Part shown: positions 847 through 5,309 of the stretch, piece after piece | Position numbering within the stretch: the first letter of the stretch is position 1 | How the letters are laid out: every line of letters begins with the position of its first letter | Assembly: GCF_023276405.1 (NCBI RefSeq) | Contig: NZ_JALRMO010000001.1 | Location: 2,852,001 to 2,916,000, forward strand | Origin: Paenibacillus hamazuiensis | Lineage (GTDB): Bacteria > Bacillota > Bacilli > Paenibacillales > NBRC-103111 | Direction: 5' to 3' | DNA: 64,000 bases | The notes under the pieces: generated by a model | The model's database searches: none | What the model saw: only the letters and a program-made list of their open reading frames with translations | Told to the model about the DNA's origin: nothing | Translations under genes and position numbers: made by a program

Positions 847-1218
847 TCATCCGAATAAAAGGTCCATGATCGTTCCCAACCTTCCCGATGTATGTCCTCT
901 CAGCACATCGGGATTATACACCTCGACAAAACCGCAATTCGTACAAGACACAAATAAAAAATGGTTATACTCAATATCAAAAATTTTGCTCAACCCTGTT
1001 CCGCTCATGGAAACTTCTTTGGTTAAACATTCATTGTGGTTGCATTTCGAGCACCGGAACTTGTTCATGATGATTTCTTCGATGCTGGCATGCATAATTG
1101 CCTGATCGACAGAATTCGTTTTTGGTTGAACATGTTCGGGCAAAACCTCGTGTTTGCACTCCGGACAAATATTATCGACGAGTTCGACTTCGCAAGAGAA
1201 CCACGGGCATTGAATCAT
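847..1218 (-). CDS. Small Zn-ribbon protein (DUF2082/nucleic-acid-binding type)
   Basis: A 123-residue protein with paired cysteines: CPEC near residue 18, CSKC near residue 55 and SCTNCGF near residue 90. The last two pairs frame a segment (KEVSMSGTGLSKIFD) that I associate with the small predicted nucleic-acid-binding Zn-ribbon family PF09855; the family name is from memory. A GGAGGGA ribosome binding site precedes the ATG at 1218. It starts 21 bases after the GTP cyclohydrolase II-like gene, so the two are probably one transcript. The role is unknown; a structural zinc is likely. No membrane segment is visible. Confidence 0.6.
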   Translation of the reverse strand: MIQCPWFSCEVELVDNICPECKHEVLPEHVQPKTNSVDQAIMHASIEEIIMNKFRCSKCNHNECLTKEVSMSGTGLSKIFDIEYNHFLFVSCTNCGFVEVYNPDVLRGHTSGRLGTIMDLLFG

Positions 1219-1995: not shown

Positions 1996-2121
1996 CAACG
2001 TTCCGCTCCTTGTATAAGATGGCTGCTGTTTGCTTCCGCAAAATCGTGACGGACCCGTTTCACTATGTGCTGACCCATGCTCTTAAAACAAAAAAACTTT
2101 GCGATCAACGATATTTGCGAC

Positions 2122-2157
2122 AAAAAAATCCCCGCCATCGTTGCCGACGACAGGGAT
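2122..2157 (-). terminator. Rho-independent terminator, probable expression platform of the riboswitch
   Basis: On the minus strand ATCCC-TGTCGTC pairs with GATGGCG-GGGAT (12 bp including G-U pairs) around a GGCAAC loop, and is followed directly by seven Ts. It lies between the riboswitch-like core (2221-2310) and the GTP cyclohydrolase II-like gene starting at 1995, the place where a switchable terminator would act. Confidence 0.75.
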
Positions 2158-2217
2158 GGAGATATAAAACATCACGAAGAGACCGCAGAGACGGTCCTTC
2201 CGGGATTCTCCAAACGA

Positions 2218-2312
2218 TACGGCAACTGGCTGGCATCGGACTGCAGCACCTGCAATCCCTTAGCCCCTGTAGCTTTGCGTCGCTAATTTTCACTAGCTTT
2301 GCCTGTTCGATT
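2218..2312 (-). ncRNA. Class I cyclic-di-GMP riboswitch (GEMM-I), upstream of ribA-like gene
   Basis: Read on the minus strand the segment contains, in the right order, the hallmarks of GEMM-I RNAs: AGGCAAAGC, a short hairpin closed by a GAAAA loop (CTAGTGAAAATTAG), GACGCAAAGCTACAGGGGCTAA, a second hairpin (GCAGGTGCTGC) and CAGCCAGTTGCCG. The first ligand-contacting position appears to be G (AGGCAAA), which favours cyclic-di-GMP over the cGAMP variants that carry A. A smaller hairpin (GACCG TCTCTG CGGTC) and then a strong terminator follow before the next gene on the strand. The motif match is by eye; a covariance search is needed for certainty. The target gene is unusual, since known members mostly control motility, chitin, pili or matrix genes. 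Confidence 0.8.
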
Positions 2313-2403
2313 TCTCCAAAACACAAACTAAATATAAACTACAATACCTGAAATTACAAGGGTCATCCCCAAAATTCATCCAATATTTACTTGGAAGCCA
2401 GAG

Positions 2404-3392: not shown

Positions 3393-4523
3393 TCATAATT
3401 GAAAAACGTCATAATCTTCCGGTAATTTTGAAGCGGAAGGCTTATTTTTACAGGCATTAATAATTTCCAGCTTTAGCTTAAGATCGTACATTTCATTACA
3501 TTTCTCAATAATTTCTTTTAATGGTTCAACGAAAGCCATTTCCGATTCCAGATATATAACTACCATGTATACAGCCACTTTTATTTGTTCAGAAATCATA
3601 TATTGGCATAGCTGCTTTTCAATCCCGTGCTTTAACTTTTTATTTCTTGCCAGCTTCACTTCGATCAATAATCTTTCATTCGATCCCCTGCTTAATTTAA
3701 AATCTACAGGTCCTCTTCCTGTGTTTGCTTCACGAGATATATTAATATTATTTAAACTAAAAAAAACAAAGGAAATACCAAAAAACAGGTTTTGAACCGA
3801 CGCTTCATCCCTTGGTTCCTGCTCGTTATCCCAAAGTAATTTGTAAATACCACGATTCATAATCGAGTGTTGAAAATATTTTATTCCTTCCCGGACTGTC
3901 CGCTCAAAATTATCGTCTTTTGAATTTTTGGTTTTTGACAGTCTCAGAAATTCTTCCTCTATATCAGTGGGCATCAAATCAGTATAAGTATGTAAATTAA
4001 TTCTAAGTTGTTTAAATTGGGTATCTGTCATCGTTTTAAAGCAAGAGTAGTATAAGGCGACATCCAAAAAATCAACATCCTGAAAACAATTATTATAAAA
4101 AAAATCAAACTTAAAACGGTTTATGTCTTCAAGGCTCCAATCCTCATCCTCGTCAACGAAATTTTCAAAAATGGCTTCATTGGTATCCGTATGTTTAAAA
4201 AACAACGCTTCATTATTTTCTTTCCAGAATTCTTCATCGGCTTCTTCGCAATACTCGATAATGTTATACAGAGCATACTCGTGCAATGGAGTTAATGTAT
4301 GTATAAAATCGTCTCTCGTCCAATAAAACAATTCCTCAACAGCCTTTATACACTTTGCTTTCCTGCTAAAATAGACCAGTTCCGGAAATATATCCGAATA
4401 CAGGTCATCAAAATTTTCATCCAGATCCTTTTGAATGTCCATATAAAAGTGGATAAAAGATTCCAAGTGAGCATTTGCAGCTTCTTTTACTTCGTCTGGA
4501 ACACCATGATAAATTTCAATCAT
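3393..4523 (-). CDS. Unclassified protein with C-terminal PD-(D/E)XK nuclease-like domain
   Basis: A 376-residue protein that I do not recognise as a named family. The C-terminal third has the PD-(D/E)XK nuclease core: GRGPVDF with Asp274, then LLIEVKLAR with Glu288 and Lys290, then a helix with Gln304 and Gln307 (KQLCQYM), which is the usual order Asp, Glu-X-Lys, Gln. The first 260 residues are rich in acidic and aromatic residues (many Phe, Tyr, Asp, Glu) and look all-helical. The start at 4523 is chosen for AGGGG seven bases upstream; the TTG at 4553 has no such site. The gene is markedly AT-rich next to its neighbours and has no partner methylase or helicase. It could be a solitary defence nuclease or a repair factor. 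Confidence 0.6.
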   Translation of the reverse strand: MIEIYHGVPDEVKEAANAHLESFIHFYMDIQKDLDENFDDLYSDIFPELVYFSRKAKCIKAVEELFYWTRDDFIHTLTPLHEYALYNIIEYCEEADEEFWKENNEALFFKHTDTNEAIFENFVDEDEDWSLEDINRFKFDFFYNNCFQDVDFLDVALYYSCFKTMTDTQFKQLRINLHTYTDLMPTDIEEEFLRLSKTKNSKDDNFERTVREGIKYFQHSIMNRGIYKLLWDNEQEPRDEASVQNLFFGISFVFFSLNNINISREANTGRGPVDFKLSRGSNERLLIEVKLARNKKLKHGIEKQLCQYMISEQIKVAVYMVVIYLESEMAFVEPLKEIIEKCNEMYDLKLKLEIINACKNKPSASKLPEDYDVFQL

Positions 4524-4611
4524 TCTTAATCCCCTCGATTTTACGTCCAACACCGGTCACAATCCGACAACTTCCCCTTCCATTATACCAATCAAACCAT
4601 TTATTAGAAAT

Positions 4612-4703: not shown

Positions 4704-5309
4704 TCACGACAACGTCTCCCACTTGGCCCACAGCTCCGGTGGGTTCAACTCGTATACTTCATTCTCCCTGAACATGAATTGATGCATGATAAACTCCCTG
4801 CGTATCGTCGCGAAGTCGTCATGAAACCGTTTGATGAAGTCGTTGATTTCTTTCTCCGTATATTTTCGGCCCTTGTCCAGTTGGGAGACGACATGTTCCA
4901 GGACGATCAGCTTTTTCTTAAGCTGGACGGGAACATGCTTTAATTTGCCCTCCGCTGTAAAAAAATTTTTCAGAACGGAATCCTTTAACCGTTTGTTTTT
5001 CTCATCCATCGCTTCGGGACCTCCTGGCGCGCTAACGTTTTTGTAAATCAACTCGACCGTAGCCGCCGAGCTGCTTTTAAGGAAGTAGTGATTCAGCGAA
5101 AAATAAATCGTGTTTTTATCGCGCCGTTCGTTTATCAGGCTCGCTTCGCGAAGCTTGGCGGCATGATGCGTGACGGTTGCTGGAGATATGCATAATTTTT
5201 CCGCCAAAATCTGGCCGTTCATTTCGCCTTCCGCCAGAAGGATCAGAAATCGGATCCGCGTCGGATCGGCCAGTGCTTTATGGTAGCTGACGACTTTATC
5301 CAATTGCAT
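4704..5309 (-). CDS. ArsR-family regulator with DUF2087 domain
   Basis: A 201-residue transcription factor. Residues 1-75 form an ArsR-type winged helix (KALADPTRIRFLILLAEGE, then LCISPATVTHHAAKLREASLI), and residues about 135-201 form DUF2087 (YTEKEINDFIKRFHDDFATIRREFI). No cysteine metal site of the arsenical or cadmium type is visible, so the signal is probably not a metal. It is a single gene with a terminator behind it and a repeated palindromic sequence in front, suggesting autoregulation. No obvious target gene is linked. GAGGTGA precedes the start at 5309. Confidence 0.85.
   Translation of the reverse strand: MQLDKVVSYHKALADPTRIRFLILLAEGEMNGQILAEKLCISPATVTHHAAKLREASLINERRDKNTIYFSLNHYFLKSSSAATVELIYKNVSAPGGPEAMDEKNKRLKDSVLKNFFTAEGKLKHVPVQLKKKLIVLEHVVSQLDKGRKYTEKEINDFIKRFHDDFATIRREFIMHQFMFRENEVYELNPPELWAKWETLS

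Follow-up and report, generated by a model that had tools for sequence, protein, structure and literature searches.

On its reverse strand, the window (the whole 64-kb stretch of Paenibacillus hamazuiensis DNA that was analysed) carries a class I cyclic-di-GMP (GEMM-I) riboswitch aptamer and an intrinsic terminator in front of a GTP cyclohydrolase II-like gene, a paralogue of ribA, which is followed by a Zn-ribbon gene (Table 1). The match to RF01051 spans model positions 1-87 of 87 and reaches 71.9 bits (E 3.8e-12), the cut-off being 35; in the 64 kb of the window no other Rfam match exceeds its gathering score. The initial annotation had recognised the class from motifs in a given order, and both GACGCAAAGC and CAGCCAGTTGCCG are present in the aptamer in the expected order. 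The strong terminator and the two downstream genes that it described were likewise recovered, the former as a 13-bp GCAA-capped stem with a T-run and the latter through profile matches to PF00925 and NF001591 for the first gene and to PF09855 for the second. The linker between aptamer and terminator is 60 nt long, and 110 nt lie between the terminator and the AAGGAG ribosome-binding site. The promoter-like site, with TTGTAA at 2359 and TATATT ending at 2331, is located just 5' of the aptamer and is weak, 0.7 such sites being expected by chance. The Zn_ribbon_13 gene is probably co-transcribed with the RibA-like gene.

Table 1. Features of the riboswitch and RibA-like locus, with positions counted from the first letter of the window.
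Feature	Position	Strand	Basis
Sigma-70-type promoter-like site (TTGTAA, 17-nt spacer, TATATT)	2331..2359	-	consensus scan, 9/12
GEMM-I (c-di-GMP-I) riboswitch aptamer	2218..2313	-	RF01051; covariation, 8 homologues; G at position 20
GUUGCCG, aptamer 3' strand, predicted switching strand	2220..2226	-	exact 7-nt complement of 2146-2140
Intrinsic terminator, 13-bp stem and GCAA loop (2157-2128), T-run	2122..2157	-	-21.7 kcal/mol
CGGCAAC within terminator, predicted antiterminator partner of GUUGCCG	2140..2146	-	complementarity and folding
AAGGAG ribosome-binding site	2006..2011	-	sequence reading; 10 nt 5' of ATG at 1995
GTP cyclohydrolase II-like gene (RibA paralogue), 251 aa	1240..1995	-	PF00925, NF001591, model against 2bz0
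Zn_ribbon_13 (PF09855) gene	847..1218	-	21 nt after the RibA-like gene

The window leader is confirmed as a class I c-di-GMP aptamer and is an ordinary member of this known class. Covariation in relatives had been proposed as a check, and among eight homologous ribA-leader aptamers 7 of the 21 pairs have changed on both sides, a number equalled by 1 of 500 shuffles. The covariation score for these eight aptamers is 0.294 against 0.116 in the shuffles, none of which (0/500) reaches it, and structures slid along the same alignment score at most 0.080; for further pair types, 11 of the 500 shuffles reach the value of the aptamer. The covariation is confined to helices 2 and 5, the remaining helices being nearly invariant. 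The window aptamer also has a GAAA loop (a GNRA tetraloop), G at position 20 and a GCCG 3' end. Position 20 in the numbering of Vc2 is position 2303 of the window, and it is occupied by G in all eight leaders. GEMM-I aptamers of the cGAMP type often have A at this position. The probable ligand of the aptamer is c-di-GMP. Some members of GEMM-I sense cyclic AMP-GMP, according to the parts of the sources available to us, and this dinucleotide might be the ligand here as well; the G at position 20 in 8/8 leaders makes this very improbable, even if the equivalent of G20 is described, in the available part of PMC9262584, as a selectivity factor and not as a hard filter.

The genome contains 16 matches to RF01051, 14 of them above the cut-off, and several precede genes of the chemotaxis, EAL/HD-GYP, PAS-GGDEF and PilZ types, the genes here and in the following cases being named by reading the downstream sequence. 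One aptamer (L008, G000:C1:6898420-6898511, + strand), which lies before a PilZ-like gene, has A at Vc2 position 20 and may prefer another cyclic dinucleotide. Another (L009, G000:C1:427303-427392, - strand) is followed by a terminator and an HD-GYP-type phosphodiesterase-like gene, an arrangement that would constitute c-di-GMP feedback if the HD-GYP reading holds. A third (L004, G000:C1:2442952-2443044, + strand) precedes a TPP-dependent dehydrogenase E1 alpha-like gene and a transporter, and its leader resembles the platform of the P. cookii and P. lautus ribA leaders. A further match of 43.1 bits is found 6 kb outside the window (L014, G000:C1:2922450-2922507, - strand); a long stretch inserted into the P3 hairpin seems to have shifted its second half.

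The RibA-like protein matches PF00925 with a score of 150.3 against a cut-off of 23.3 (E 4.6e-44) and passes NF001591 (190.8 against 148). It fails TIGR00505, the model for the ribA equivalog domain (175.2 against 205.85), which suggests that it belongs to a RibA-like subfamily and is not the canonical equivalog. The AlphaFold2 model of the protein has a mean pLDDT of 83.6, and its best structural match is E. coli RibA (2bz0, E 4.7e-15). The zinc motif CX2GX7CXC, HSIC and [DNH]HEGR are present in 93 of 93 extracted RibA-like proteins, and HEGR is also found in the RibBA chain of M. tuberculosis (4i14); the initial annotation had taken the DHEGR deviation as a hint of a paralogue, but these sequences show a trait of the subfamily and give no support to a local mark of this gene. 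HSIC, with Ile, is characteristic of the subfamily, whereas canonical RibA has HSEC, with Glu. C99, C110, C112 and R174 are invariant among 22 aligned sequences, and the protein keeps the residue aligned with the catalytic Arg128; both the zinc motif and Arg128 are described in the part of PMC10366380 available to us. We infer that the window protein probably has GTP cyclohydrolase II activity, although the Ile of HSIC and the score below the equivalog cut-off count against it.

Three PF00925 proteins are encoded in the genome, namely RibBA, the window RibA-like protein and a second RibA-like protein (L018) that is 60% identical to it, and the paralogue status proposed for the window gene is thereby borne out. 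No Rfam match is found at the L018 locus. This second paralogue is common to the window genome and Cohnella sp. CFH 77786 (L082). In the phylogeny the RibA-like subfamily stands apart from the RibBA of the same genome. The one other member of the genus examined has a single match, 47% identical and in a 407-residue frame, which marks the RibA-like gene as an accessory one for this lineage.

The related loci that we compared are the best 80 of 442 relatives. A model search places a GEMM-I aptamer upstream of the RibA-like gene in 4 of these 80 loci (Paenibacillus cookii, L024; P. lautus, L025; a Paenibacillus MAG, L026; and Cohnella sp. CFH 77786, L027), and Rfam, applied to 29 of the 80, agrees with the model search. 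Among 392 genomes drawn evenly from the order, 12, that of the window included, have a RibA-like match at E <= 1e-98, and in 8 of these 12 (the window genome and 7 of the 11 others) the RibA-like gene is preceded by GEMM-I; no GEMM-I is found upstream of it in L104, L112, L113 and L114. Merging the loci from the order draw with the contig loci and removing four duplicates left eight distinct leaders. Another gene might have followed the aptamer in relatives, a possibility raised in the initial annotation as one that would speak against the link, but the RibA-like gene comes next in 8/8 distinct leaders. The seven other GEMM-bearing RibA-like proteins are 68-72% identical to that of the window.

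For the tree, identical proteins were collapsed to 86 RibA-like rows, and L019-L023, L106, L107, L110 and L111, which are duplicates or canonical RibBA copies, were left aside. All eight GEMM-bearing rows fall into one clade of ten (support 99/98), whose remaining two rows, L032 and L033, are without the aptamer. Presence of the aptamer requires 2 changes on this tree, whereas shuffled labels need 7.8 on average, and a single change is enough in 38% of the bootstrap trees. This distribution would fit a single gain of the aptamer with few losses. The Zn-ribbon gene was rejected as part of the conserved unit, there being no match to it in the 80 contig loci or in L104-L114. A gene for an ArsR-DUF2087 regulator is located near the GEMM-ribA unit in the window (4704-5309, - strand) and in Cohnella sp. 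CFH 77786 (L027:4852-5454), the two being 69% identical; the window also encodes a 386-aa protein (3393-4553, - strand) that has no match in Pfam or NCBIfam.

The eight leaders have two types of platform. In the type of the window, which includes L026 and L109, the exact 7-nt complement GUUGCCG/CGGCAAC is present in 3/3 leaders, and UCGGCAACGA is invariant in their alignment. The genome has 15 other GEMM-I aptamers, and such a 7-mer complement follows none of the 12 that were tested (0/12); it is also absent from the five other ribA leaders (0/5). The predicted co-transcriptional fold of the window leader passes through the GUUGCCG/CGGCAAC antiterminator; the strongest duplex in this leader is in a shifted register, and AUCGUU with AACGAU is also used. 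In the second platform, found in five relatives, the 5' arm of the terminator (UCCGUCUAUUC or similar) has as its partner GAAUA-c-GACGGA, or a similar sequence, immediately 3' of the aptamer. The strength of the duplex shows a modest excess over shuffles in six of the eight leaders (13-48 of 1000) and is no better than shuffles in L024 (546/1000) and L027 (311/1000), in a test whose tail spans only part of the second-platform antiterminator.

The ligand-bound state was modelled only by removing the aptamer and folding the downstream part alone. Treated in this way, the window terminator, 12 nt before the end, is predicted at 0.53 with the aptamer sequestered against 0.10 in the free state; at full length, the values are 0.95 sequestered and 0.97 free. 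Since the terminator is predicted in both full-length states, switching in the window leader must be kinetic. For the second platform, folding gives the sign of an OFF switch in 4/5 leaders, of which L025 and L105 show the effect strongly at full length and L027 and L108 show it only at earlier stages of transcription; in L024, sequestering the aptamer gives no gain of the terminator at any length. A difference between the two states at full length is absent in 6/8 leaders. The predictions thus offer moderate support for an OFF switch, and we consider it likely that c-di-GMP promotes termination. The initial annotation had supposed that high c-di-GMP directs more GTP towards flavin; the folding predicts, with the same moderate strength, the reverse, namely termination and less enzyme.

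c-di-GMP could also bind and prevent termination, or bind and have no effect in vivo. The terminator is predicted to dominate the free-state equilibrium in six of the eight leaders, which speaks for a switch that is ON or locked, and in Bacillus thuringiensis the Bc1 GEMM-I riboswitch is described, in the available part of PMC11218506, as forming its terminators without ligand and as having downstream genes that do not respond to c-di-GMP. Nevertheless, both platforms among the eight leaders set the antiterminator against the 3' end of the aptamer or the bases next to it, and we regard an ON or locked switch as unlikely.

RibD lies immediately 3' of the RibA-like gene in 53 of the best 80 of 442 loci (52 at full length and one, L091, as a piece), and it does so in 6 of the 8 GEMM-bearing loci, the exceptions being the window and Cohnella L027. 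The RibD of L024 passes TIGR00326 with 416.9 against 156.35 bits. In 13/13 genomes checked, a separate RibD, 45-49% identical to that of L024, has an FMN riboswitch no more than about 0.6 kb away, which shows the GEMM unit to be an additional route outside FMN control. In the window genome, the FMN riboswitch, RibD and RibBA are located together at 1.904-1.908 Mb, and this RibD is the only one at full length. The single full-length RibD and the three PF00925 genes would both fit the idea that the window unit is a relic that has lost its RibD and whose enzyme is redundant with the two other PF00925 genes. The intact reading frame, the retention of all invariant residues, the complementary platform strands, the ribosome-binding site and the promoter-like site argue against decay, and we find a relic quite improbable. 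The missing RibD partner in the window would also agree with an enzyme that cleans the nucleotide pool, for example of oxidised guanine nucleotides, and makes no flavin-type product; E. coli ribA is reported, in the available part of PMC6906586, to be under SoxRS and to take part in the removal of 8-oxo-dGTP. We give pool cleaning very little credence, because RibD directly follows the RibA-like gene in so many of the related loci and in most of the GEMM-bearing ones.

Other genes in the neighbourhood bear on the product of the pathway. Among the best 80 of 442 loci, 40 have an NT5C-type HAD phosphatase at most 2.8 kb from the RibA-like gene, and 29 have a PF01494 flavin monooxygenase no farther from it than about 1.5 kb (after the gene in 22 and before it in 7). 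Searches with the riboflavin synthase and the lumazine synthase encoded in the genome's own rib operon gave no match at E 1e-8 across the 80. These counts, the frequent RibD and the separation of the subfamily from the RibBA of the genome would be expected if the operon served a separate product of 5-A-RU or its phosphate instead of riboflavin and the RibA-like protein catalysed the first step of a specialised Bacillales pathway. The neighbourhood of the GEMM-free relatives favours giving such a special product some consideration. However, no monooxygenase or NT5C-type phosphatase is found around the eight distinct GEMM-bearing loci, a count that did not change when wider stretches of the window genome, G302, G331 and G130 were included, and a short operon of this kind could simply boost riboflavin. 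We therefore hold a separate product to be possible but lean against it. A GEMM-free cassette of RibA-like gene, RibD, PF01494 monooxygenase and often NT5C HAD phosphatase occurs in L029, L030, L036, L039 and other loci of Bacillales, in some together with an HxlR regulator; it possibly represents an undescribed pathway derived from 5-A-RU.

The reading that we favour, with some reserve, is that a transcriptional GEMM-I riboswitch shuts an accessory GTP cyclohydrolase II at high c-di-GMP. Without ligand, the free 3' strand of the aptamer, GUUGCCG, would pair with CGGCAAC as the polymerase moves through the hairpin sequence, and readthrough would result. With c-di-GMP bound, this strand would be held in the aptamer, the terminator would fold and the RibA-like gene would be off. 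The enzyme would convert GTP to DARPP, the pyrimidine of the riboflavin pathway, which in most GEMM-bearing relatives the adjoining RibD would carry on to the stage of 5-A-RU phosphate; in the window species, the RibD of the FMN operon would have to supply this step. If the switch is indeed OFF, the RibA-like enzyme would be made at low c-di-GMP, presumably in motile cells. Its product would presumably be of the flavin type.

That aptamer and RibA-like gene have been kept together in several relatives suggests that a GTP-consuming, flavin-type chemistry is coupled to lifestyle signalling. A more far-reaching version, which we consider rather doubtful, is that c-di-GMP directly gates, by way of RNA, an FMN-independent RibA-RibD branch to 5-A-RU that yields a specialised or secreted flavin-like product in the motile state and is shut by high c-di-GMP; if true, the gated branch would use GTP from the very pool that also feeds the synthesis of c-di-GMP. 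Where the first step of flavin synthesis is duplicated and the extra copy is under a conserved switch, without feedback by FMN, lifestyle signalling would be tied to the supply of cofactors or redox metabolites. Known targets of GEMM-I are motility, surface and signalling genes, according to the part of PMC7288161 available to us. No link between a c-di-GMP riboswitch and GTP cyclohydrolase or riboflavin was found in the open-access literature searched, a partial coverage with subscription papers mostly outside it; the pairing of GEMM-I with a RibA-like target, which the initial annotation had considered a possible new regulon link, is thus provisionally new.

Several known systems resemble parts of this locus. 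At the level of the protein, the RibA-like enzyme has in common with E. coli RibA (2bz0) the fold, the CX2GX7CXC zinc motif and the residue aligned with Arg128, but about 68 residues precede its aligned part, as against about 22 in E. coli RibA, it has HSIC in place of HSEC, and it carries an extra residue before HEGR, as does 4i14. The likeness to UTP cyclohydrolase (7eev, 7ej3) in fold and profile is that of distant homologues, the profile match (E 3e-6) being far weaker than that to E. coli RibA (2.5e-50). At the level of the RNA, the Cd1 switch of Clostridioides difficile is located before flagellar genes. The window leader has in common with it the aptamer fold, G20, an intrinsic terminator and, by prediction, a 3' aptamer strand that takes part in the antiterminator, whereas the target in the window is a paralogue of GTP cyclohydrolase II; Cd1 is described, in the available part of PMC9262584, as an OFF switch in which strand A of the aptamer joins the antiterminator. 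The rib operons controlled by the FMN riboswitch (RF00050) likewise place a riboswitch over RibA- and RibD-type enzymes, but the sensor in the window belongs to a second-messenger class.
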